Positions 3,507 through 62,856 of a stretch of DNA of 64,000 nt are shown here, piece by piece. How positions within the stretch are numbered: position 1 is the stretch's first letter; each line of letters opens with the position of its first letter. The notes beneath the pieces were generated by a model, which searched no databases, was not told the origin of the DNA, and saw nothing but the letters and a program-made list of their open reading frames with translations. The translations under genes were made by a program, and so were the position numbers. Source of the DNA: a bacterium (lineage in GTDB: Bacteria; SZUA-182; DTGQ01). Location of the stretch: the NCBI GenBank assembly GCA_040755755.1, contig JBFLZW010000018.1, positions 120,024 through 184,023 on the forward strand, given 5' to 3'.

Positions 3507-4460
3507 GTGAGCGCAATGACAACCGAAGTTATTGAAAACGTCCGGATATCAGGCCAATACTATCGGCTTACCCTGGCTTGCGCCGAAATAGCCAATCAGG
3601 CATCTGCCGGACAATTTGTCATGATCAGGGTGCATCAGGGCCTGGATCCCCTGCTGCGCCGCCCCTTTTCCATCCACCGGCTGTGGGACTCCCGCCGGCA
3701 CAGGCCATCCCCGGATTCCGGAAGCGACCGCCCGCAAGGCATCCAGATACTGTTTCGCCTGGCAGGGAAAGGAACAGCGTATCTGGCCTCGCTGTCCACA
3801 GGAGCGAAAATCGATGTTATTGGTCCGCTCGGCCACGGTTTTCAGCTTGAAAAGCCGGTTCTGCACCCTGTTTTGATTGCCGGGGGAATCGGGATTGCTC
3901 CTTTGCTTTTCCTGGCTGATCAATTAAGAGTGGTCAGTGGTCAGTGGCCAGTGGTCAGTAAAGAGAAGACAGGAGACAGAAGCCAGGAGTCAGGAGTCAG
4001 GAGTCAGGAGAAAAACAAACTGCAAGCGACGTCATTGATGGAAAGTCCATTATTCCAGCCCCGGCTGTTCCTTGGGGGAAAAAGTGCCGAGGACATTCTC
4101 TGTCAGGAGGATTTTCGGAAACAGGGCTTTTCTCTCTCCATCTCCACTGAAGACGGGTCCCTGGGGCATAAGGGGCTGATCACGGAACCCTTGTGCGCAT
4201 ATCTGGAGCAGGTGACCCGGATTTCGTCCGGGATTGAACCTGTTCTTTTTGCCTGCGGTCCCCTCCCCCTGATGTCCAGGGTAATTGAAATTGCCCGGCA
4301 CTATCATCTGAGCTGCCAGGTTTCCCTGGAGCAAAGAATGGCCTGCGGAGTTGGTGCCTGCATGGGATGTGTGGTAGAATTGGAAGAAGGCGATAATTCG
4401 CATCAATACCGAAGGGTCTGCACGGAAGGCCCGGTTTTTGAGATACTCATAAAGAATTAA
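3507..4460 (+). CDS. pyrK: Dihydroorotate dehydrogenase electron transfer subunit with an in-frame repeat insertion
   Basis: PyrK passes electrons from the PyrD FMN to NAD through FAD and a [2Fe-2S] cluster in pyrimidine synthesis. Visible motifs are RRPFSI (residues 51-56, FAD binding), IAGGIGIAPL (124-133, nucleotide binding) and a C-terminal cluster motif CGVGACMGC followed by a fourth Cys in RRVCTEGP. At 317 residues it is longer than usual. About 40 extra residues after FLADQL (from residue 141) come from the CAGTGGTCAGTGG/CAGGAGTCAGGAG repeat at 3929-4010, read in frame. Start is GTG 3507 or ATG 3516; neither has a clear ribosome site. It precedes pyrD as expected. Confidence 0.9.
   Translation: MSAMTTEVIENVRISGQYYRLTLACAEIANQASAGQFVMIRVHQGLDPLLRRPFSIHRLWDSRRHRPSPDSGSDRPQGIQILFRLAGKGTAYLASLSTGAKIDVIGPLGHGFQLEKPVLHPVLIAGGIGIAPLLFLADQLRVVSGQWPVVSKEKTGDRSQESGVRSQEKNKLQATSLMESPLFQPRLFLGGKSAEDILCQEDFRKQGFSLSISTEDGSLGHKGLITEPLCAYLEQVTRISSGIEPVLFACGPLPLMSRVIEIARHYHLSCQVSLEQRMACGVGACMGCVVELEEGDNSHQYRRVCTEGPVFEILIKN
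3929..4010. repeat. CAGTGGTCAGTGG / CAGGAGTCAGGAG word repeat inside pyrK
   Basis: Seven-base words GTCAGTG and GAGTCAG are tandemly reiterated, encoding SGQWPVVS and SQESGVRSQE in the pyrK frame. The same words occur between genes at 7684-7736, 11415-11475, 27590-27625, 37880-37910, 52835-52920 and 58262-58494. Here the repeat keeps the frame open. Confidence 0.85.
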
Positions 4461-27462: not shown

Positions 27463-27593
27463 GAAGAACGATCTCCCGCAGAGACGCAGGGGCGCAGAGA
27501 ATAACCGAAAATGATTTCCTCTGCGTCTCAGCGTCTCTGCGGGAGAAATACAACACTGCCGTGTCGTCTTTCCCATAAGAGCGATTGTCTTTA
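27463..27593. repeat. GCAGAGACGCAGAGG composite repeat, copy 1
   Basis: An inverted repeat (CTCCCGCAGAGACGCAGG..CTGCGTCTCAGCGTCTCTGC) is followed by a conserved 45-base tail CACTGCCGTGTCGTCTTTCC..AAGAGCGATTGTCTTTA. The whole 130-base unit recurs in the same orientation at 43001-43140. It is followed at 27590-27625 by tandem CTGACCACTGACCA words. It separates flgE and flgF. Confidence 0.85.
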
Positions 27594-27630
27594 CTGACCA
27601 CTGACCACTGACCACTGACCACTATACTGA

Positions 27631-28830
27631 CTACCGTTTCAGGTTCACCAGTTCAGTCAGGAGCTGATCAGCCGTGGTGATGGTTCGGGCATTGGCCTGA
27701 AAGGCGCGCTGCGTAATGATCATTCTCACAAACTCAGCGGCCAGGTCCACGTTCGAATTTTCCAGATTAAAAGAGGCGATGCTTCCCTTGCCTCCTGTTT
27801 TAGGTGCATTGATGACCGGCTGGCCGGACGCCGGGGTAGCCAGATAGAGATTGTTACCCACATGCATCAGGCCATTTGGATTATGGAAATCAGCCAAAGC
27901 GATGCGGGCGATATCCTCGCGCCGGCCATTGGTAATGATTCCCTGAATTACTCCATCCCTGTTGATGACAAAGCTGCTCATGGAACCTGCCTCATAGCCA
28001 TCCTGGGAAAAAGAGATCGTGGAAGAAAGATCAGCGGCATGCTGAGTGGATCCTCCAAAATCGACATTGATTGTCTGCCCTCCACTCATGGTAATGGTAC
28101 CTGTGCCTGGCGTAGTACTGTCCAGAACTCCAGTAGTAGTGAAGGTCAGGTCGCCGCTCTGGTTCAGTGAAGTACCCTCCTCGAAGGCATGCCACTCCCA
28201 TTGATTATCGGCATCCTTGCGAAAGTAGAAGGTGAGATTGTGCCCGTCACCAAGAGAATCGTAGATTGTCAGGGATACGGTGTAGCTGGAAGTATTCGAG
28301 GGATCGGCAGGATCAAAAGCTGCACCGGATGAAACCGGATCATCGGATTTCAGATTGACTTTTATGGCCACATTTTCAGTGGCATGGGGAGAGACTGAAA
28401 TATTGGAAATATTGAGGTCAGATGGAGGACTGGCCATGCCTGCGCTATCCTGCAGGTTCCACCCCTGAACAACCCGGCCTTCGGGAGTAACCAGCTTTCC
28501 GTCTTCATTAATATGGAATTGCCCGGCCCTGGTATAATATTCACCAGCCTCATCCTTGACGATAAAGTATCCGGCTCCGTCAATGGCCAAGTCCGTCAGG
28601 TTGTTGGTGGCGGTCAGAGGGCCCTGGCTCAGGACTGACGATACACCACTGACGTTGACTCCATTCCCGAATTCAAGTTTTCCAGTCTGCTGATAGAGAA
28701 TGTCGGCAAATTCCGCCCGCTGGGTCTTATAGCCAGGTGTATTGGCATTGGCGATATTATTGGCGATGATGGACATGTCATTGTTATTGGCAGTTAAACC
28801 GTTGACTCCTGTCGAGAGACAATTGAGCAT
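27631..28830 (-). CDS. flgE: Flagellar hook protein FlgE
   Basis: FlgE polymerises into the hook outside the cell. The 399-residue product starts MLNCLSTGVNGLTANNNDMS, followed by IIANNIANANTPGYKTQRAE; the middle has SYTVSLTIYDSLGDGHNLTF (hook D1-type domain) and the C-terminus FVRMIITQRAFQANARTITT. Length is ordinary for FlgE, in contrast to the giant length-control gene fliK nearby. AGGAGG precedes the ATG. It lies between flgD and flgF. Confidence 0.95.
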   Translation of the reverse strand: MLNCLSTGVNGLTANNNDMSIIANNIANANTPGYKTQRAEFADILYQQTGKLEFGNGVNVSGVSSVLSQGPLTATNNLTDLAIDGAGYFIVKDEAGEYYTRAGQFHINEDGKLVTPEGRVVQGWNLQDSAGMASPPSDLNISNISVSPHATENVAIKVNLKSDDPVSSGAAFDPADPSNTSSYTVSLTIYDSLGDGHNLTFYFRKDADNQWEWHAFEEGTSLNQSGDLTFTTTGVLDSTTPGTGTITMSGGQTINVDFGGSTQHAADLSSTISFSQDGYEAGSMSSFVINRDGVIQGIITNGRREDIARIALADFHNPNGLMHVGNNLYLATPASGQPVINAPKTGGKGSIASFNLENSNVDLAAEFVRMIITQRAFQANARTITTADQLLTELVNLKR

Positions 28831-28952: not shown

Positions 28953-29690
28953 CTACTCCTCACCGCTGTCCGCTTCCACTGCTGCCTGCTCCGGCGGCAA
29001 TGCGGCGGAAGATTCCTCCTTTTCGTTTTCGCTGACTTGCAGGATTCTCGATATGGGCACAGTCTGCTCTGCCACCTTTACCGAAGGATCACCTCCTTGC
29101 GTGAAAATAACCTCCTTGACCTCGTCGATCAGATAGGGAGTCAAGCTGATTGTCTTCCCTTGACGGCTGTAAGCGGTAATTTCAACCGTATATGTCCCTT
29201 CGGGCAGATCTTTTCCTTTATCCCCCTTCCCATCCCATTCGATTGTCTGCATCCCGCTGTCCTGGGAAGGTTTCTCGATAGTCCTTACTTCACGCCCGTC
29301 TGAATCGAATATTTTGACGGTCACTCTGTTCGCACTATCGGCCAATTCGTAGTTGAGGTTAACGGTACTCTGGTCTTTCAGATAAACCTTGGTTGCATCG
29401 ATCCTGGCTGTTTTTCCCAGGAGGTTGGCCAGCAGGGAATTATAGATGGAGTTTTGAGAATCGGCCAATGTCTCAAGACCCTGATTGACGTTATACATCT
29501 GCTCAAGCTGGCTGAACTGGGACAACTGAGAGACAAATTCCGTATTATCCATAGGATTTAAGGGGTCCTGGTGCTGCATCTGCGTCAGGAGAAGCTTTAA
29601 AAAGTCATCCTTGTTCAGGCTGTCAATTTTTGAAATCGTCTCGTTGGCCGACGGAGCAACCGTTGACTCGAGTAATCTGGATGCTTGCAT
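28953..29690 (-). CDS. flgD: Hook-capping scaffold FlgD
   Basis: FlgD caps the growing hook. The ATG at 29690 (MQASRLLES) is the start, with AGGAG 8 bases upstream; the upstream open frame encodes the CACGAAACACACG repeat. The 245-residue protein has FLKLLLTQMQHQDPLNPMDN followed by FVSQLSQFSQLEQM, the FlgD signature, a FlgD Ig-like domain (LADSANRVTVKIFDSDGREV) and a beta-barrel part. The acidic tail EEQAAVEADSGEE-like end is family-variable. It directly follows fliK, a common order. Confidence 0.93.
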   Translation of the reverse strand: MQASRLLESTVAPSANETISKIDSLNKDDFLKLLLTQMQHQDPLNPMDNTEFVSQLSQFSQLEQMYNVNQGLETLADSQNSIYNSLLANLLGKTARIDATKVYLKDQSTVNLNYELADSANRVTVKIFDSDGREVRTIEKPSQDSGMQTIEWDGKGDKGKDLPEGTYTVEITAYSRQGKTISLTPYLIDEVKEVIFTQGGDPSVKVAEQTVPISRILQVSENEKEESSAALPPEQAAVEADSGEE

Positions 29691-29718
29691 TTCCTCATCT
29701 CCTAAAGAATTAAAGATG

Positions 29719-29790
29719 ACCACGAAATACACGAAACACACGAAAGAGACTTTGTATTCTTTCGGGCCTATTTCGTGTATTTCGTGGTTA
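29719..29790. repeat. CACGAAACACACG inverted repeat between fliK and flgD
   Basis: ACCACGAAATACACGAAACA and TATTTCGTGTATTTCGTGGTT are the arms of a long hairpin. It is a second copy of the element at 4465-4535 with the same GGTTAAAATTC flank. Confidence 0.8.
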
Positions 29791-29805
29791 AAATTCTTTG
29801 CCAAG

Positions 29806-32800
29806 TTAAGCTAAATAGTTTATTTCATTATCGCCGGTATCGTGCTTTCCATTCTGGCCGAACGGAGAACCGGGGGTATCGGCGGCGGATATACCCGCTA
29901 AGCCCTGCTCTCTTCTTTTCTGGTATTGGCCTTCCGGATAGCCGGAAAACCTGCTTTGTTTCTGATGGCCGATGCCTCCTCCCCCAACGGATACGGAAAA
30001 TTGATTTACTTCCAGCCCCTGATCTGCAAGATGCCTGGCCAGTGACACCTTGAGGGAGGCAAGATTTTCCTCCAGAATTTTCTGTGTCTGCGGGTTATCT
30101 GCCGCCAGATGAGCCCTGAACATGTTTTCCTTCAGTTCGAGACTGATATGCAGCCTGCCCAGATGCTCCGGATGAAGATTTACGGTCAGGCTATGGCCGT
30201 TGTCCCGGATATGAGCCGTGAGCCGGGGCATGACCTGCTGGATTATCTCCTCCACAGGAGAAGATGCGGCTGAGGTAGAGGTATTGATTGCAGCCGGCAG
30301 CGATGTGCTTTCCCTGAGAGACGGCTGGCCGGGTAATTTCAGGGAAAATGCCGCCTCTTTACTGTCAGGTGATGTCAGGGGGCCGGATTTGGGCTTATCA
30401 TGGTAAGGAGTTGACTGCTTTTCCACCAGACCCGTCAGGCTCCGGGAAATTGCCGGAACATCCACCTCCTTCGATGGAGGTGCCGCGAACGGATGGGGCG
30501 GGGAAGAAACTGATATGCCGCTTCCGGGCTGCTCCTTGCTGCTGATGGGCAGTACGTTTTTTTCATCCCCCTGTTGTGCGGATGATGATTTTGAGCCCGG
30601 CTTTACCGGCTGAGTCTGACTCTGCCAATTCTGCGGGGGATTCAGGTCCACCTGCCGGGTGAGTTTGCCCTGGAGGTCAACATCTCCCTGCAAAGCCTTC
30701 GGTATGGCCTTCGGGTCAGTATCCTGCTGTTTGCCCTGAAGATTGCCTGCCTGCTGTTGAGCCTGGAAGTCAACCGCCCGCTGTCTGCTCTGATGATCAG
30801 CATCCCCCCCCTTCCTGTCCTGGAAACCGATCTCCTCCCGGTTGCCCTCCGGATCGGTGATTCCCTGTACAATGTGCGGACCAATCACTTGCTGCTTGCC
30901 GAGGGGATCGATATCCTGTCGCGTACCCTGCGGATCAATCACTCGTTGAGTGCCCTGGAGATTACCCTCTTTTTGCATAACCTGCGGATCAATATCCGCT
31001 TTTTCCCTCCGCGGGTCGGCATCCTGTGGTTTGCTGTGCCGGTCTGTCTCACCCTGTATGCTTTGCAGTTTATCGCTCTGCTGGTCAATCTCCCTCTGCC
31101 TGCCCTGCGGATCGATGGTTCGCGGATTGACGGTTTCTTGTATAACCCGCAGATCAATCAGCCGTTGTTTATCCTGCGGATCGATCTTTCCCTGAAGATC
31201 AGGATCAGATTCAACCGGCAGGTCAAACTTTGGCTGTGGATCGAAGCTTTCCGGAAGATTAAGGTCTTCCCACGAATTCAGGTCTGTTGACAGAGCAGGC
31301 TCCGCTTGCTGGTTAAGATTATCCTGCGGGGCAGGAACGAGACCCGGCTTGCGTTCGTCCTTCGGGTCAGGTCCTCTGTTCATATTGAGCTCATCCTGCC
31401 TGGCAGATGCTGCATCTAAACTGAGCGCGCCCTGCTCATCAGGCCCTGCCAGCCAATTAACTCTATTTTGGCCCTGCGGCTCAGGAACTGACTCCAGGAT
31501 GGGCTCACCCTTCGGGTCAGGCTCTACCTTCATATTGAACTCATCCTGTCTGACTGATGCTGCCTCTAAGCCGGGTTTGCCCGCCCCATCAGGCTCTGCC
31601 TGCCAATTAATTCTATCCTGTCCCTGATACTGCTGCTCAGGAACCGGCTCCGGATTGAGCTTGCCCTTCGGGTCATGTTCTGCCTGCGGGTCAAGTTTAT
31701 CCTGCCTGGCGGATGCTGTCTCCAGGTTGGGCTTACCCTTCTGGTCAGGCTCAGCTTGCGGGTTGAACATGCTCTGCTGGGTGGGCGCTGCCTCCATGCC
31801 AGGCTTGCCCTGCCCATCAGGTTCTGCCTGCCATATAACTCTATCCTGATCCTGAGCCTGATCCTGAGCCTGAAGCCCAGGAACTGGCTCCGGATTAAAA
31901 TCGTCCTTCTGGTGAGGTTCTATCTTCAGGGTAAGCTCATTCTGCTTGACAGACACTGCCTCCAAACCGACCTTGCCCTGTTCATCAGGAATTGCCTGCC
32001 ATATAATCTTTACCTCTTCCCCTTTTTGTTCCTGAGCCTGCGGCACAGGGATTGGCTCTGGATTGAGCTCACCCTTCTGGTCAGGTTCCGCCTGCGGGTT
32101 GAACATGCTCCGCTGGGCAAATACTACCTCCACCTCCGGACTGAGCTTACCCTGGCTATCAGGCTCTGCCTGCCATGTAACTCTATCCTGAGCCTGAGCC
32201 TGCGGCGCAGGAACTGGCTCCGGATTGAGCTCGCCCTTATGGTCAAGTTCCACCTTCACCTTAAGCTCATCCTGCATGGCCGATGCTCCCCCCAGGCTCT
32301 GGTTGCCCTGCCCATCAGGTGCTATTATCTGCCAATTAATCCTATCCTGTTCCTGGAGCACAGTGACTGCCTCCTGGTTAAGCTCACCCCTCTGCTCAGT
32401 CTCTGCCTGCGGAGTGAACATGCTCTGCTGCGCAGACGCTGCCTCCGGCCTGAGCTTGGCCTGCTCATCAGGCCATGCCTGCCAATTAATCTCATTCTGG
32501 TCCTGCGGACCGGGAACCGGTTCCGAATCCTGAGCCTGAAGCCCAGGAACTGGCTCCGGATTAAAATCGTCCTTCTGGTGAGGTTCTATCTTCAGGGTAA
32601 ACTCATTCTGCTTGACAGACACTGTCTCCAAACCGACCTTGCCCTGTTCATCAGGAATTGCCTGCCATATAATCTTTACCTCTTCCCCTTTTTGTTCCTG
32701 AGCCTGCGACACAGGGATTGGCTCTGGATTGAGCTCACCCTTCTGGTCAGGTTCCGCCTGCGGGTTGAACATGCTCCGCTGGGCAAATACTACCTCCACC

Positions 32801-35800
32801 TCCGGACTGAGCTTACCCTGGCTATCAGGCTCTGCCTGCCATATAACCCTATCCCGCTCCTGAGCCTGCGGCGCAGAAACTGGCTCCGGATTGAGCTCGC
32901 CCTTCTGCTCAGTCTCTGCCTGCGGGTTGAGCTCATCCTGCCTGGCAGATATTGTCCCTGGGCTCAACCTGCTCTGCCCGTCAGACTCTGCCTGCCATGT
33001 AACTCTATCCTGAGCCTGAGCCTGCGGCGCAGAAACTGGCTCCGGATTGAGCTCGACCCTCTGCTCAGTCTCTGCCTGCAGGGTGTGTTCAGAGGTTCCC
33101 CATCTTGGAGAGGTGCCTCTCTCATACTCCTCCCCCTTGAGGGGGGGAGCCCCTGTAGCAGGCAAGCCTCCATCACTCTCCTCCCCCTTGAGGGGGGAGG
33201 CTGGGTGGGGGTGATGGCTATTCTCACCCTTCTCATTGAAAAAGGGGAAATGGGGAACATCCGGGGTGTGTTCATCCTGTTTGACAGATGCTGCCTCCAG
33301 GCCAAGCTTGCCCTGCCCTTCAGTCACCGCATCCCATATAACCCTATCCTGTTCCTGACCCTGCTGCCTAAGAGCTGGCTCCGGATTGAGCTTGCCCTTA
33401 TGGTCAAGTTCCACCTTCACCTTAAGCTCATCCTGCATGGCCGATGCTCCCCCCAGGCTCTGGTTGCCCTGCCCATCAGGTGCTATTATCTGCCAATTAA
33501 TCCTATCCTGTTCCTGGAGCACAGTGACTGCCTCCTGGTTAAGCTCACCCCTCTGCTCAGTCTCTGCCTGCGGAGTGAACATGCTCTGCTGCGCAGACGC
33601 TGCCTCCGGCCTGAGCTTGGCCTGCTCATCAGGCCATGCCTGCCAATTAATCTCATTCTGGTCCTGCGGACCGGGAACTGGTTCCGAATTGAGCTTGCCC
33701 TTCTGACTAAGCTCTACCTGCGGGTTGAATGGACTCCGCTGGGCAGGCGCTGCCTCCAAACCGAGCTTGTCTTGCCCATCAGGCTCTGATTGCCATGTAA
33801 CCTGGCCCTGATCCTGATCCTGACTCCGAGCCTGCGGCCCAGGGGCTGGCTCCGCCAGGCTAAATTTGCCCTTCTGGTCAGGCTCTGTCTTCATGCCGAC
33901 TTCATCCTGCCTGGCTGAAGCTGCTTCCAAGCGGAGCCTGCTCTGCTCATCAGGCTCCACCTGCCCTGTAATCCCATTCTGATCCAACGGCCTGAGAACT
34001 GGCTCAGGGTTGGGCTTGTCCTTCTGATCAGGCTCTGCCTGCGGATTGAACATGCCCTGCCGGATAGATACTGCCTCCGGGCTCATCGTGCCCCGCCCAT
34101 CGGGTTCCTCTGCCTTCATATTGAGCTTATCCTGCCTGGCCGATGCTACTTCCAGGCTGGCCTTGTCCTGCCCATCAGGTGCTATCTGCCAATTAATCCT
34201 ATCCTGTCCCTGGAGCACAGTGACTGGCTCCTGATTGAGCTCGCCCATCTGCTCAGTCTCTGCCTGCGGGGTGAACATGCTCTGCTGCGCAGACGCAGCC
34301 TCCGGGTTAAGCTTACTTTGCCCATCAGGAGACTCTGCCTGCCATGTAACCCCATCCGGTTCCTGAGCCTGCGGGCCGGGGGGAACTGTCGCCGGGCTGA
34401 ACTCGCCATTCTGATCTGAGTCCACCTGCAGGGTATATTCACCATGCTTGACAGGTTCTGCATCAAAGCTAAATTTGCTCTGTCCATCAGGCTCTGCCTG
34501 CCAATTAATCCCATTCTGAACCCGCTGCCCGGGAACTGGCTCCGAGCTGAATTTTCCCTTCTGGTCAGGCTCTGCCTGTATCCTGAATTTATCCTGCATG
34601 ACAGGCACAGGCTCTACCTCATCCTGAGCCTGTGCCCGCGGCACAAAAACTGGCTCCAGATTGAGCTTGCCATTCTGGTCAGGTTCTGCCTTCATGTTGA
34701 GCTTATCCTGCCTGGCCGAAGCTGCATCTGAGCTAAGTTTGCCCTGCCCATTGGGCACTGCCTGCCAATCAACCCTATACCTATTCTGCGGCCCAGAAAT
34801 CAACTCCGGATTGAGCGGGCTCTTCTCAGGCTCCGCCTGGGGGTCAAGGGTGCTCTGCCGGGCAGGTTCTGCGAAGTATTCGCTGTGATTGCCTTCCCCT
34901 TCGATGATGGAGCCGCGAACTACCTCCAAAGGAGGTAAGGATTCACCATGATCATCCCCTTCGATCACGGATAGGCTATCCACATCCTCATTAGGAAATG
35001 ATCTATCATACTCCTCTCTCATGGCTATGACTTCATTATCCACCTTCCCACCAGGTGCGAGACTGTCATCCCTCTCCCCCTCAAAGGGCGATGTCATTAA
35101 ATCAAGGGCAGTCATTGAGCCCAGGGCAGTCTCTTTCCCCCCTCGCCCCTGTGGAGAGAGGGTTGTGGTGAGCGGCTTTGCGGTGCGAAGCGCTAAGTTA
35201 ATGACATTGTCCGTAAGGGGGGAGGCTGAATAGGGATGATAGATGAGATCACCCTCTTCTGTCTCCCTGACAAAGGCAGGAGTCTGGCCACTGCCTTCTG
35301 CGGCGGCACCCACAGTGTGGGGTAGCCCTTTGGATTGCGGTGGCACGACACCGCTTTCCTTCTCATGGAGTGAGGATGAAGGGATAGTCATTTTCCTTGC
35401 AGATGGCTCAACATAGCCGCTTTCATGAATAGCCGGGCTTAACTGAATAGCATTGCCCTCACTGGGGAGAGGGCTGGCAGTGTGCTCAAGCCACAGGGGC
35501 TCCCTGCGCCACAGGGGCTTTAAGTCCTCCTCGATAAATGGGAGGTATTGATGACCACGGGATAGACTTTGAGTCACTTCCGGGTCAGGTTGTGTTACCC
35601 CAGAGAAGCTTTGAATTCGCACCGGGGGAGGCTGGAACCCCTCACGGATACCCTCATGGCTACCCTGACTTTCCCCAGGGTGAAGTGGGGTTTCCCCAGG
35701 GAGGCTCCGGGTGTCTTTCCCTGAACCAATGTCTGTGTCTGCTGACCCCTTATTGACAACTGCCGGTCCGGGCTCTCCTTCCTGCTGTGCCTGGAGTGGG

Positions 35801-36558
35801 CGCACATTTTCAAAGTCAATCCTGACTGTGGACCAATGGTAAGGAATTATCCGCTTTATATATATTTTATCTGCCTCTGATTCCACCAGGGTTATTCTCC
35901 CGATCCCGTTCTTCCCGATCCGATCCTGGGCTCTGTACCTGGCTATACCCCTGCCCCTGGTATCCTGAGACTGAACCATATCCCTGGCTATGGCCTGCGC
36001 TCTGAACGTGTCCCCGGCCCAATACCTGTTTTGAGCCACTTCCCCGGCATCTCTCATGAAATACCCGGCCTGAGCCACGTTCATCTTCCCGGTCATGTCC
36101 GAGTCCCTGGTCACAGCCACTTCTCCATCCGTATTCACCTCCCCGGATGTTTTCACGCTCCTGGCCATATCCACATCCACGGCTATGTCTCCATCCCTGA
36201 TCATATCCATATCTCCGGCCATGTCCACATCAGCGGCCATGTCCGTATCTCTGGCCATATCTCTATCCCTGGCCGCATCCAGAGCCAAATTCTCAGCCTG
36301 CGGCATATCCTTGACTGCAACCTGCGGCATATCCTTGACCGCATCCCTGACCCTGGCTGCCATGTCCCCGGTCATGTCCTTTGCTTTATCAAAGGAGCTC
36401 AGGGAACGGCTCAGAAACTGGAAAAAGAGATTGTCGGAATCAGGGGGAACCGTTTTTGATTCTCTCCCTCTGGATTTTTCTTCGATCTGTCTGGCCGCTC
36501 TGGTTTTTATAAATTGGAGGCGATCCGCACCTGATGGAAAATTCTGAGCCGAAAGCAT
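29806..36558 (-). CDS. fliK: Giant repeat-containing flagellar hook-length control protein FliK
   Basis: FliK is secreted during hook growth and its C-terminal domain acts on FlhB to switch export from hook to filament proteins. The product has 2250 residues, several times the usual 400-700. The Flg_hook domain is at about residues 2100-2200 (LTVNLHPEHLGRLHISLELK, then a helix). N-terminal residues about 99-152 repeat DMA.D units. Residues about 590-1760 hold roughly 19 degenerate units with W-Q-A-E-P-D-G-Q, then A-S-A-R-Q-D-E, then E-P-D-Q-K-G-K-L-N-P-E-P-V. Residues about 1786-1970 have DPQGKQ-type repeats. An in-frame 61-codon insertion lies at about 1095-1156. It sits between flgC and flgD. 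Confidence 0.88.
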   Translation of the reverse strand: MLSAQNFPSGADRLQFIKTRAARQIEEKSRGRESKTVPPDSDNLFFQFLSRSLSSFDKAKDMTGDMAARVRDAVKDMPQVAVKDMPQAENLALDAARDRDMARDTDMAADVDMAGDMDMIRDGDIAVDVDMARSVKTSGEVNTDGEVAVTRDSDMTGKMNVAQAGYFMRDAGEVAQNRYWAGDTFRAQAIARDMVQSQDTRGRGIARYRAQDRIGKNGIGRITLVESEADKIYIKRIIPYHWSTVRIDFENVRPLQAQQEGEPGPAVVNKGSADTDIGSGKDTRSLPGETPLHPGESQGSHEGIREGFQPPPVRIQSFSGVTQPDPEVTQSLSRGHQYLPFIEEDLKPLWRREPLWLEHTASPLPSEGNAIQLSPAIHESGYVEPSARKMTIPSSSLHEKESGVVPPQSKGLPHTVGAAAEGSGQTPAFVRETEEGDLIYHPYSASPLTDNVINLALRTAKPLTTTLSPQGRGGKETALGSMTALDLMTSPFEGERDDSLAPGGKVDNEVIAMREEYDRSFPNEDVDSLSVIEGDDHGESLPPLEVVRGSIIEGEGNHSEYFAEPARQSTLDPQAEPEKSPLNPELISGPQNRYRVDWQAVPNGQGKLSSDAASARQDKLNMKAEPDQNGKLNLEPVFVPRAQAQDEVEPVPVMQDKFRIQAEPDQKGKFSSEPVPGQRVQNGINWQAEPDGQSKFSFDAEPVKHGEYTLQVDSDQNGEFSPATVPPGPQAQEPDGVTWQAESPDGQSKLNPEAASAQQSMFTPQAETEQMGELNQEPVTVLQGQDRINWQIAPDGQDKASLEVASARQDKLNMKAEEPDGRGTMSPEAVSIRQGMFNPQAEPDQKDKPNPEPVLRPLDQNGITGQVEPDEQSRLRLEAASARQDEVGMKTEPDQKGKFSLAEPAPGPQARSQDQDQGQVTWQSEPDGQDKLGLEAAPAQRSPFNPQVELSQKGKLNSEPVPGPQDQNEINWQAWPDEQAKLRPEAASAQQSMFTPQAETEQRGELNQEAVTVLQEQDRINWQIIAPDGQGNQSLGGASAMQDELKVKVELDHKGKLNPEPALRQQGQEQDRVIWDAVTEGQGKLGLEAASVKQDEHTPDVPHFPFFNEKGENSHHPHPASPLKGEESDGGLPATGAPPLKGEEYERGTSPRWGTSEHTLQAETEQRVELNPEPVSAPQAQAQDRVTWQAESDGQSRLSPGTISARQDELNPQAETEQKGELNPEPVSAPQAQERDRVIWQAEPDSQGKLSPEVEVVFAQRSMFNPQAEPDQKGELNPEPIPVSQAQEQKGEEVKIIWQAIPDEQGKVGLETVSVKQNEFTLKIEPHQKDDFNPEPVPGLQAQDSEPVPGPQDQNEINWQAWPDEQAKLRPEAASAQQSMFTPQAETEQRGELNQEAVTVLQEQDRINWQIIAPDGQGNQSLGGASAMQDELKVKVELDHKGELNPEPVPAPQAQAQDRVTWQAEPDSQGKLSPEVEVVFAQRSMFNPQAEPDQKGELNPEPIPVPQAQEQKGEEVKIIWQAIPDEQGKVGLEAVSVKQNELTLKIEPHQKDDFNPEPVPGLQAQDQAQDQDRVIWQAEPDGQGKPGMEAAPTQQSMFNPQAEPDQKGKPNLETASARQDKLDPQAEHDPKGKLNPEPVPEQQYQGQDRINWQAEPDGAGKPGLEAASVRQDEFNMKVEPDPKGEPILESVPEPQGQNRVNWLAGPDEQGALSLDAASARQDELNMNRGPDPKDERKPGLVPAPQDNLNQQAEPALSTDLNSWEDLNLPESFDPQPKFDLPVESDPDLQGKIDPQDKQRLIDLRVIQETVNPRTIDPQGRQREIDQQSDKLQSIQGETDRHSKPQDADPRREKADIDPQVMQKEGNLQGTQRVIDPQGTRQDIDPLGKQQVIGPHIVQGITDPEGNREEIGFQDRKGGDADHQSRQRAVDFQAQQQAGNLQGKQQDTDPKAIPKALQGDVDLQGKLTRQVDLNPPQNWQSQTQPVKPGSKSSSAQQGDEKNVLPISSKEQPGSGISVSSPPHPFAAPPSKEVDVPAISRSLTGLVEKQSTPYHDKPKSGPLTSPDSKEAAFSLKLPGQPSLRESTSLPAAINTSTSAASSPVEEIIQQVMPRLTAHIRDNGHSLTVNLHPEHLGRLHISLELKENMFRAHLAADNPQTQKILEENLASLKVSLARHLADQGLEVNQFSVSVGGGGIGHQKQSRFSGYPEGQYQKRREQGLAGISAADTPGSPFGQNGKHDTGDNEINYLA
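31872..32238. repeat. fliK internal duplication A, copy 1
   Basis: This 367-base segment is repeated at 32538-32904 with fewer than about ten mismatches by eye. The offset is 666 bases (222 codons), so the frame is kept. Confidence 0.85.
32231..32527. repeat. fliK internal duplication B, copy 1
   Basis: This segment of about 297 bases is repeated at 33392-33688 with almost no mismatches. The offset is 1161 bases (387 codons), again in frame. Confidence 0.85.
32538..32904. repeat. fliK internal duplication A, copy 2
   Basis: Second copy of 31872-32238 at a 666-base offset. Visible differences include GGGTAAGCTC versus GGGTAAACTC and CTGCCTCC versus CTGTCTCC. Confidence 0.85.
33081..33274. 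mobile_element. Small in-frame insertion element in fliK (MITE-like)
   Basis: An 11-base direct repeat, GGGTGTGTTCA, at 33081-33091 and 33264-33274 bounds the insertion; the period is 183 bases, exactly 61 codons. Just inside are 9-base inverted repeats, GTTCCCCAT (33095-33103) and ATGGGGAAC (33250-33258). The interior has two copies of CTCCTCCCCCTTGAGGGGGG. In the protein the flanking codons read DEHT and SEHT on the two sides, and sibling units have no such insert. This is the signature of a small non-autonomous element with target-site duplication. There is no coding capacity for a transposase. Confidence 0.7.
33392..33688. repeat. fliK internal duplication B, copy 2
   Basis: Second copy of 32231-32527 at a 1161-base offset. 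Confidence 0.85.
35091..35207. repeat. Second repeat-derived block in fliK with 10-base inverted ends
   Basis: ATGTCATTAA (35091-35100) and TTAATGACAT (35198-35207) are perfect inverted repeats 117 bases end to end (39 codons). The interior has C-rich and G-rich words (CTCGCCCCTGTGGAGAGAGG) like the blocks at 33.1 kb and 63.4 kb. It encodes LTTTLSPQGRGGKE on the minus strand, a translation typical of such repeats. No clear target duplication was found. Confidence 0.5.
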
Positions 36559-36675: not shown

Positions 36676-37110
36676 TCATATTTTCAGCGTGTTCTTGATC
36701 ATATCCTTGGTCGCGCTGACTGCGGTAAGATTAGCTTCGTAGGCACGCATGGTAGTGAGCAGATTGCCCATTTCCTCTATGGGGCTGATATTGGGCATGG
36801 CCACTACACCATCGGCATCTGCATCCGGATGCGAAGGGTCATAGACCAGGTTCGGCTGCCGGGGATCGGTGAAGGTTCCGATCACTTCGACTTTGTTCAC
36901 CGGCCTTATTCCAACGGATTTCAGGATTTCCTCAAAGGTAGGCTGTTGAACCGGAATGGCTGCGAAAGTGGCGTCCTGACGGCGATAGGGGCCGCCGGCA
37001 GCAGTCCTGGTGGTGGTAGCATTGGCAATATTGCTGGAAATAAGATTCATCCGATAGCGCTGGGCCATCAGCCCGGAGGAACTGACATCAAGTGAGGTAA
37101 ACAGATTCAT
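36676..37110 (-). CDS. flgC: Proximal rod protein FlgC
   Basis: The 144-residue product starts MNLFTSLDVSSSGLMAQRYR, then MNLISSNIANATTTRTAAGGPYRRQ, matching FlgC, and ends with helical EANLTAVSATKDMIKNTLKI. The PYRRQDATFAAIP segment is also typical. It begins 2 bases after flgB ends, so the two rod genes are coupled. The neighbour downstream is fliK. Confidence 0.95.
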   Translation of the reverse strand: MNLFTSLDVSSSGLMAQRYRMNLISSNIANATTTRTAAGGPYRRQDATFAAIPVQQPTFEEILKSVGIRPVNKVEVIGTFTDPRQPNLVYDPSHPDADADGVVAMPNISPIEEMGNLLTTMRAYEANLTAVSATKDMIKNTLKI

Positions 37111-37112
37111 GG

Positions 37113-37511
37113 CTATTTTCTCCCTTCGGCAATAACTGTCCGCAGTTGCTCGAACCGTTTCGAGAGCATCAGAGTCAGAGTGGTGAACATGAGCTGATTT
37201 TCAGTAAGTTTGCTCATTTCCAGGTCCAGATCCACGGTATTTCCGTCATTCTTGACCGGCGTGGAAGTTGGCACCAGTTGAGGATCACGCAGCTTTTCAT
37301 TCATTACCAGATCAAATGCCCGGTAATTGGGGGTATTCAGGTTGGCGATATTCGAGGAGATCAGGCTGTTGCGCCTGACCCGGTAATCCACTCCCTGTTC
37401 CAGATCAGGAAAGGGTTGATCGAACAATTTTTTTTGAATAATCCGGCCGGTCTGGCCTTTCGATTCAGCCTCAATATTCATTGGCGCATTTTCGATTCTA
37501 CTGATTGGCAC
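37113..37511 (-). CDS. flgB: Proximal rod protein FlgB
   Basis: FlgB forms the base of the rod. The signature RRNSLISSNIANLNTPNYRA (after about residue 45) and the C-terminal SKRFEQLRTVIAEGRK are present. Start choice is uncertain: the GTG at 37511 (VPISRIENAPM) has GGGAGAG 7 bases upstream, while a TTG at 37547 and an ATG at 37535 have no good site. With the GTG the protein has 132 residues. It precedes flgC by 2 bases. Confidence 0.88.
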   Translation of the reverse strand: MPISRIENAPMNIEAESKGQTGRIIQKKLFDQPFPDLEQGVDYRVRRNSLISSNIANLNTPNYRAFDLVMNEKLRDPQLVPTSTPVKNDGNTVDLDLEMSKLTENQLMFTTLTLMLSKRFEQLRTVIAEGRK

Positions 37512-37594
37512 TTGAGTACTCTCCCTGGACAGCATATCCTGAGTCAAAGGTCAAAGACCGCTTCACTGCAAAGACTTCGGTTCCTATCTCGTAA

Positions 37595-52735: not shown

Positions 52736-52920
52736 AAAAGAAACCACAGAGACACAGAGACACAGAGAAAAGCAACAGCAGGGTCAGAAGGCATCTGCCA
52801 TGAGGGTTCTCTGTGCCTGCTTTTCACTGGCCACTGACCACTGATCACTGACCACTGGCCACTGATCACTCCCCTCCTGACTCCTGACTTCTGACTCCTG
52901 ACTTCTGACTCCTGCTTTCA
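52736..52920. repeat. Composite word repeat, copy 1 (fliI-fliJ gap)
   Basis: Three blocks in order: CACAGAGACACAGAGACACA (52743 on), a unique-looking 60-base core (AAAAGCAACAGCAGGGTCAG..GGCATCTGCCATGAGGGTTC..GCCTGCTTTTCACT), then tandem GGCCACTGACCACTGATC and TCCTGACTCCTGACTTCTGA words up to 52915. An inverted copy with the same order of blocks is at 58262-58400. Confidence 0.85.
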
Positions 52921-58261: not shown

Positions 58262-58494
58262 TCAGTGGTCAGTGGTCAGTGGTCAGTGGCCAGTGGCCAG
58301 TGAAAGGCAGGCACAGAGAACCCCAATGGCAGATGCCTCTGATCCTGCTGTTGCTTTTCTCTGTGTCTCTGTGTCTCAGTGGTGTCTTTTTCTTTTTTTC
58401 TGGCTCCTGACTTCTCTTTACCGGCCACTGACCACTGATCACTGACCACTCTCTCCTGACTCCTGTCTCCTGACTCCTGACTCCTCTTCTTTAA
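58262..58494. repeat. Composite word repeat, copy 2 (inverted) with TPR gene 3' end
   Basis: From left: tandem GTCAGTGGTCAGTGGCC words, the core with GCAGGCACAGAGAACCCC..GGCAGATGCCTCTGATCCTG..TTGCTTTTCTC, then TGTGTCTCTGTGTCTCAG. It is the reverse complement of 52736-52870 with some changes. Further words (CCACTGACCACTGATCACTG, TCCTGACTCCTGTCTCC) run into the TPR gene to about 58490. Confidence 0.85.
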
Positions 58495-60825: not shown

Positions 60826-62856
60826 CGCAGCCTCAGGAAATTCACCAATGGTCAGGATGCCAATCAGCCGCCTGGCCCCTCTATACCAGTAGGCGATCCG
60901 GTCACCTGGACCTATCAGGTCACCAATACCGGCAATGACGTTCTCACCGGCGTGACCGTGACCGATGATCAGGGAGTTGCCGTCTCCTGTCCATCAACTA
61001 CCCTGGGTCCTGGAGAGTCCATGACCTGTTCAGCCAGTGGCACTGCCCATGCTGGCCAGTATGGAAATGCTGGCTCGGTTACCGGCACAGACACACTCGG
61101 CAACCAGATTATCGCCGACGACCCCAGCCATTACTTTGGGACCAGCGGTGGAATCAGGATCATAAAATCTGTGAATGGTAACGATGCCAATACTCCTCCG
61201 GGATCATATATCCCTGTGGGCGGTCAAATCACCTGGACCTATGAAGTTACCAATACCGGCAATACCACCCTCACCGGGGTCACGGTAACCGATGATCAGG
61301 GAGTTACGGTTTCCTGCCCCGCTGCTACACTGGGGCCTGGTCAGACCATGATCTGTACAGCCAGTGGCACAGCGCAGGCTGGCCAGCATACAAACACCGG
61401 GACAGCGACCGGTACTGATCCATCCGGCAACACGGTTACAGCCAGTGATCCCAGTAACTATTTTGGTTATACCAGTGGAATCAGCCTCAAGAAGTTTACC
61501 AATGGGCAGGATGCTGATCAACCGCCTGGCCCTGAAATTCCGCTCGGCGATCCAGTCACCTGGACCTACCAGGTTACAAACACCGGCAATACCAACCTTA
61601 TCAATGTCACAATTACCGATAGTCAGGGAGTTACGGTCACCTGTCCTCAAAATACCCTTGACCCTGGAGAATCCATGACCTGCACGGCCACTGGCACTGC
61701 CCGGGCTGGTCAATATGAAAATACCGGCACGGTCACGGCCATTGATCCGGTCGGCAATAATCTGACGGCCAGCGATCCCAGCCACTACTTTGGAGTGTCC
61801 CCGGCACAGCCATGCCTGAAGCTGACCAAGACAATCAATGGCCCCTATCGCACTTCGGACAACCTGTTCCTCAATGACCGGATTATTCCGGTCGCGGTCA
61901 GAGATACCCTGGTTCCGGAGGGCAAGCTCTTCTACTTTCTGGTCGGAATCACGGTGGAAAACTGCAACAATACTACCCTGACCGGAGTGGTGGTTACCGA
62001 TACCTTCAGCAATGAAGCCTATCCTTTCGAAACCAGTGATCCTGCCAATGTGACCATTGTGCCTCCACCGAGTCCCGGAGGCTTTGAACGGGAGACTCTG
62101 ACCTGGACGGCAGGCAGTATTCCAGCTTTCCAGAGCAAAACTCTTCTGATTAAAGTCGGGACGGAATTCAATCCAAGCGGACGGCTTGAGCCGACCAGTG
62201 CACCACAGTCAATCTTTTACAACGGTCGCAACAACGATACCGGCGGTGCCTCAGTCGTCACCAATGAGGGCTTGAGCGCAGCAGTTGGAGCGGCGCTCCT
62301 GACCAACGGTGCCGAGATTAGCTGTGCCGGCAGTGACGGCCAATGGGACCCGCTTCCTTATGACCGGTGTACCACTATCACGACGCCGCTGCCCATCACC
62401 CTGACCGCTACAGATACGACCACGACATCGACTGCGAACTTTGTGCCACGTACTGTATCGTCCTGGAGGACAGACGCGTATAGGAACCCTGAGCATATGC
62501 AATCCTTCCTGCCCACCTGGCTGGGAAATCCAAAGGGTCAGGAAAGTATCAAAGTTGCTGCCATCGATCAGGTTCATGATATCCTTTCCCTGAAGCAGGG
62601 AAGCAGGCTTAATGAAATCGTCAATCTGTATGCTCAATTACTCGCCTGCAAATTAAATCTGGCCAGCGGTAGCGATCCTGATGTCCGGATAAGTGAGTCA
62701 GCCAATATCCGGGACGTAGTCAGTGAGATCGATTCTTTCCTGGCCAATTACAGTTCGCAGCACTGGTACCTGAAATTAGGCAGATCCCAGAAGGATCAGG
62801 TTAAACAATGGGTGAAAGAACTTGCGGGTTATAACAGCGGAAAGAATACTCCCTAA
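60826..62856 (+). pseudogene. DUF11-type surface repeat protein lacking its 5' end
   Basis: Three tandem units of 327 bases (109 codons) start at 60841, 61168 and 61495. Each has the pattern NGQDADQPPG..P.GDPVTWTYQV, TNTGN..LTGVTVTDDQGV, SCP, GQTMTC.ASGTAQAGQ.. and SDPSHYFG. Then come a diverged DUF11-like domain (about 61810-62260) and an unrelated helical C-terminus (for example SAFLANYSSQHWYLKLG-like, near 62750). The first unit is in frame back to a stop at 60823-60825 with no start codon; homology begins at about 60829. So the original N-terminus and signal peptide are missing. An internal GTG at 60952 could allow a shorter product without a signal. A strong terminator follows. Confidence 0.75.

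Follow-up and report, generated by a model that had tools for sequence, protein, structure and literature searches.

FliK-type rulers are a textbook example of proteins that measure length. In Salmonella, FliK variants of 363–785 residues yield hooks of 42–135 nm under tight control, and hook length increases linearly by 0.2 nm per inserted residue (PMC6126814). This slope was measured up to 785 residues with alpha-helical inserts, and FliK proteins of at least 520 residues already lower motility (PMC6126814). Each residue of a fully extended chain covers 0.37 nm, and the ruler has to reach across both rod and hook (PMC6972891). An intragenic duplication of 100 residues has been described in a selected FliK suppressor mutant in which switching was improved (PMC6972891). 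A second relevant precedent comes from Rickettsia, where palindromic elements are inserted in frame into proteins (reviewed in PMC10969869).

An intact fliK gene in a conserved hook operon

The fliK gene examined here encodes 2250 residues and lies at 29806..36558 on the minus strand of the window, the whole 64,000-nucleotide stretch of DNA that was analyzed. The frame begins with ATG and contains no internal stops or frameshifts over 6.7 kb, and there are no N characters in the window. Residues 2115–2194 (29977..30216, minus strand) match the Flg_hook export-switch domain (PF02120, E=1e-17, 64.2 bits, cut-off 29.8), and this is the sole PF02120 match among the contigs of the 5.26-Mb genome. 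In a phmmer sequence search, the C-terminal part also hits 2RRL, the solved C-terminal domain of Salmonella FliK (E=4e-6). An AlphaFold model of the C terminus has a core pLDDT of 83–90, and Foldseek places 2RRL first (E=6.5e-7) and the PscP switch domain, 5CUK, second (E=9e-4). Outside the C-terminal part, no sequence similarity to Salmonella FliK was found. Compared with the FliK of a sister species in the same genus, the switch domain has a dN of 0.13 and a dS of 1.39 (dN/dS about 0.10). It is strongly conserved and, to judge from these rates, is under strong purifying selection.

The first 60 residues (36379..36558, minus strand) are 43% identical to the same-genus FliK over a short stretch of 42 residues, which includes the motif FFQ.LS.S..SF. 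From general knowledge of FliK, we take this region to be a probable hook-type export signal.

The minus-strand gene order is flhA-flhF-flhG-fliA-flgB-flgC-fliK-flgD-flgE-flgG-flgA, with further hook and rod genes between flgE and flgA. The order from flhA to flgA is identical in the same-genus sister MAG HOT.CON.50, and the operon proteins are 59–95% identical between the two genomes and nearly equal in length (for example, FlhA 697/697), FliK excepted. The rod genes flgC and flgB (36676..37547, minus strand) lie upstream of fliK and were assigned from profile matches and the sister comparison. Directly downstream is flgD, encoding the hook cap (28953..29804, minus strand; PF03963 and PF13860). 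Its ORF starts at TTG and has 283 codons for amino acids compared with 221 in the sister, so the longer start may be over-called. The hook protein gene flgE (27631..28830, minus strand; profile match) encodes a protein of ordinary length, 399 residues, that is 72% identical to the 398-residue sister protein (dN 0.18, dS 1.09). Two flagellin genes are present elsewhere in the genome, and thus a late-export filament is available to switch to.

The preliminary description of this locus reported a FliK of 2250 residues with an intact C-terminal switch domain. Both statements are borne out by the open frame, the single Flg_hook domain, the fold match, and the position in the operon. The conserved ends lead us to infer that 29806–36558 encodes the functional flagellar hook-length protein of this genome.

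FliK length among sampled genomes

Comparison of FliK lengths in related genomes, as the preliminary description had proposed, gives 555 residues in the same genus (HOT.CON.50) and 467 in the same family (CSMAG_2299), so that the protein examined here is about four times as long as its sister version. Both relatives are encoded in the same operon and have a conserved C-terminal domain. The HOT.CON.50 domain is 61% identical to ours over 203 residues including flanks, and this protein also shares the short N-terminal motif. Unlike our protein, neither relative carries the repeat array described below, and the linker of the 555-residue protein is single-copy in its own genome. Their fliK genes are short yet intact, so the gene is not a pseudogene in these close relatives.

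A broader sample of 386 genomes, comprising relatives and a broad spread over the domain, yielded 152 genomes with a Flg_hook match. Our frame measures 2259 codons from stop to stop, and the longest frames after it, among the matches listed, are 1235, 1175, 1172, 1092, 1032, and 1022. A set of 398 genomes from a single FliK-rich phylum gave a longest frame of 1057 among the matches listed. The FliK described here is real and intact, and it lies at the far end of the sampled length range, a statement that covers about 310 listed FliK frames, the higher-scoring matches, from about 780 genomes rather than all FliK proteins.

Sliding windows were used to examine seven long FliK frames of 989–1235 residues for repeats. 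One has a clear array, and the rest have little or none. The exception is a FliK of 1092 residues (L049, genome G317) with an array of ∼107-residue units that are unrelated to ours, which suggests that tandem duplication has lengthened rulers on more than one occasion. Searches of a literature drawn largely from outside the subscription journals turned up no precedent for a FliK with tandem repeats or of unusual length.

A degenerate tandem array within the linker

The main array spans residues 563–1746 (31321..34872, minus strand) and is built from units of ∼50 residues with the core WQA.PD.Q. An HMM of the unit recognizes 25 segments over these 1184 residues: 16 are full, two are near-full, one is split by an insertion, and the remainder are partial. 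This corresponds to about 22 degenerate Trp/Pro/Gln-rich units. The array of the preliminary description is therefore confirmed, and its estimate of about 19 units and ∼1170 residues is close to these figures. The unit consensus is QDRINWQA-EPDGQGKLS-LEAASAQQDEFNPQAEPDQKGELN-PEPVPxPQAQ. Autocorrelation reveals periods of 50–52 and 24–26 residues, and the two halves of the unit are alike; the basic unit may thus be about 25 residues.

Two further repeat zones had been proposed, and both are present. The first is a hexapeptide-like zone rich in Met, Asp, and Ala at residues 61–200 (35959..36378, minus strand), with autocorrelation periods of 6, 12, and 18, of which 6 is the strongest; TRF reports periods of 18/36/54 at 36158–36281. 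The second is a Gln/Asp-rich low-complexity zone at about residues 1747–1980 (30619..31281 for residues 1760–1980, minus strand) with a weak 9-residue periodicity. A Ser/Pro-rich linker connects this zone to the switch domain. Residues 201–560 hold no repeats internal to the gene, but two dispersed elements lie inside this region.

The repeat region has a Uversky score of −0.18 and contains 11% proline, and the repeats are predicted to be a disordered, proline-rich chain. A compact fold, one of the options raised initially, was considered for a two-unit segment and was not adopted. AlphaFold gave a pLDDT of 40 and no secondary structure for this segment, which is weak evidence given the shallow alignment of eight near-related rows. 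The idea of compactly folding repeats is weakened because the repeats look disordered and proline-rich.

Another possibility is that the repeats have a second job after FliK is secreted, such as binding the hook, the cap, or a surface through the conserved Trp motif. Across 17 aligned units, the core Trp, Gln, and Asp are each present in 16, so that WQA.PD.Q is conserved in nearly all units. In addition, FliK has been reported to bind FlgD and FlgE through its N-terminal part (PMC6972891), and repeated binding sites are conceivable. However, the units match no known domain in Pfam, NCBIfam, or PDB sequences, they are predicted to be disordered, and the unit has no significant match in other FliK loci. 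We consider a second function of this kind improbable. A tblastn search for plasmid relatives also gave no match.

Several other repeat features were observed in the window. A 704-residue ORF on the plus strand (31675–33789) lies antisense to fliK, wholly within the repeat array, and probably results from the codon composition of the repeats. At 60828–61730 there is a tandem repeat of 327 bp with 2.8 copies, whose consensus, read by eye, appears to encode a DUF11-like repeat. Short arrays with 7-bp units are scattered at 3929–4011, 27593–27623, 52825–52914, 58262–58302, and 58453–58485 (units AGTGGTC, ACTGACC, CACTGAC, CTCCTGA, and TCAGTGG).

Dispersed elements are read in frame within the linker

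The preliminary description attributed the enlarged ruler to repeats. This holds for the array, but not all of the excess length is tandem: three linker stretches that it missed, residues 363–425, 440–496, and 1098–1158, are dispersed genomic repeats read in frame. Element A (residues 363–425; 35284..35472, minus strand) has matches in its own genome of up to 85% over 150 bp and 82% over 176 bp. Element B (residues 440–496; 35071..35241, minus strand) belongs to a CCTCACCC..CCCTCTCC palindrome family, with own-genome matches such as 79% over 113 bp and 74% over ∼170 bp. Tens of further matches to elements A and B are spread over the genome.

The third element is a palindromic insertion at 33082..33273 (minus strand), in frame within a single repeat unit (residues 1070–1181). 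The insert starts near GATGTTCCCCAT and ends near ATGGGGAACCTC, and it is flanked by 9-bp direct repeats, GAACACACC, at 33265–33273 and 33082–33090. The insertion together with one GAACACACC copy is 183 nt, or 61 codons. About 47 DNA matches to this family occur in the same genome. Many copies carry the terminal inverted repeats GATGTTCCCCAT...ATGGGGAACATC, and complete copies are typically 120–122 bp; the FliK copy retains both inverted ends, with changes. Target-site duplications of ∼8 bp are visible by eye at several other copies and are imperfect or absent at others. On the basis of its inverted ends and target duplication, the inserted element is best described as MITE-like.

Translated in the FliK frame, the family has the signature ..DVPHFPxLDEEGENNHHPHPASPLKGEE.., and about ten long proteins of unrelated families besides FliK carry it in frame (for example, L034, L036, L087–L093, and L097). 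The hosts recognized by Pfam include polyketide synthase modules, GH2, a putative N6-methylase, FHA, HEAT, NB-ARC/TPR, and LVIVD proteins. Some copies are intergenic, and in-frame copies were searched in one reading frame, so the count of in-frame hosts gives no rate relative to chance. In the sister species the family has a single match, which is partial, and the palindromic core of the family is commoner in other members of the class.

History, selection, and assembly of the array

Segmental duplication has contributed to the array. A 385-bp stretch has been copied at 94.5% identity and contains an exact repeat of 285 bp, the longest within the gene (33394..33678 and 32233..32517, minus strand). 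A second duplicated block of about 320 bp has five differences. Units differ in length by whole codons.

An assembly artefact or a decaying gene was also considered as an explanation of the array, since the draft genome comprises 88 contigs and the array contains near-identical blocks as well as the exact repeat of 285 bp. The exact repeat is shorter than a typical read-pair span, and most units differ by 20–30% in DNA, which permits unique assembly. A misassembly could shift the count by a few units, which is given here as in the draft, but it could not generate the array. The absence of N, stops, and frameshifts over 6.7 kb argues against both artefact and decay, and the purifying selection on the switch domain is further evidence against decay. 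We therefore regard this explanation as very improbable.

The median dN/dS among repeat units is 0.54, with values of 0.7–1.0 for many close pairs, compared with about 0.10 for the switch domain; these Nei–Gojobori estimates for the units are rough because the units are short and are related by duplication. Stop codons are absent from 13 distinct units. When the observed substitutions were redistributed at random over positions, a mean of 18.2 stops was expected, and zero was never obtained in 2000 trials. This result agrees with the earlier proposal that the long open frame is under selection. By these measures, the frame is maintained, and the array is only weakly constrained whereas the switch domain is strongly constrained.

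Weak constraint could also mean that FliK is functional and that its expansion is neutral with respect to length. The chain might be slack or coiled in the channel, or switching might be probabilistic, so that a near-normal hook is made. The repeats would then be neutral baggage that multiplied through slippage and unequal exchange. A unit dN/dS of about 0.5 is consistent with this possibility, as are the selfish dispersed elements found in the same linker and in many other proteins of the genome, a FlgE without unusual change, and the short FliKs of the sisters. However, the Salmonella hook grows linearly with each inserted residue and is tightly controlled (PMC6126814). Moreover, the WQA.PD.Q core is closer to invariant than pure baggage would need, although recent duplication also keeps units similar. 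On balance, length neutrality is a serious rival to a length-setting role, though the less likely of the two.

Discussion

The comparisons above show a linker expansion in this lineage only, which proceeded by duplication and element insertion. The disordered linker grew from about 400 to about 2000 residues. One source is a Pro/Gln/Trp unit of ∼50 residues that was duplicated again and again, in tandem and in segments, and the other is a set of dispersed palindromic elements inserted in frame. Such insertions would be tolerated because the linker presumably must keep its frame open and its chain flexible but requires little specific sequence, as suggested by the weak dN/dS constraint together with the absence of stops.

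We lean toward the view that this protein works as a ruler whose linker is tolerant and enormously extended, and that it likely gives an unusually long hook. If so, FliK would still be exported as a tape measure and threaded through the growing hook, and the switch from hook to filament export would be delayed. Extrapolating from the Salmonella values of 405 residues and a 55-nm hook, a protein of 2250 residues, which is far outside the measured range, would yield 424 nm at 0.2 nm per residue, or about 740 nm at 0.37 nm per residue. The hook would thus be about 0.42 μm by the Salmonella slope and up to about 0.7 μm with the chain fully extended. The slope is uncertain since this range is exceeded and the array is proline-rich and predicted to be disordered. 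The proline-rich linker is not helical as in the Salmonella inserts, and it might stay slack. In addition, the motility loss in Salmonella at 520 or more residues implies that a 0.4-μm hook could be costly. The more specific proposal, that this is an extreme natural ruler built by unit duplication and captured palindromic mobile elements that sets a hook of 0.4–0.7 μm, is accordingly tentative. If this proposal is true, natural lineages can lengthen a molecular ruler several-fold, and the dimensions of a nanomachine can be reset by mobile elements.

A natural ruler of 2250 residues with intact ends would test the linear rule far past the engineered 785 residues. It could reveal whether disordered, proline-rich chains measure length as helical ones do, and what hook length a motor tolerates. 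Within this one gene, the ruler has also grown in two ways: by tandem duplication and through mobile palindromes inserted in frame, a behavior best known from Rickettsia.

Comparison with known systems

Among described proteins, Salmonella FliK (405 residues) resembles ours in the sequence and fold of the switch domain (2RRL), in having a flexible linker, and in its hook-gene neighbors. It differs in length, and the linker of our protein consists of a repeat array plus mobile-element inserts. Engineered Salmonella FliK proteins with YscP inserts (PMC6126814) are similar in that the ruler is longer and the ends are intact. In contrast to our protein, these are laboratory-made, carry alpha-helical inserts, and reach 785 residues, about a third of the length here. 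The inserted elements are most like Rickettsia palindromic elements, since in both cases a palindrome of ∼120–200 bp stays in frame in many unrelated proteins (PMC10969869). Our elements are GC-rich and occur in an unrelated lineage, and the likeness is one of behavior.
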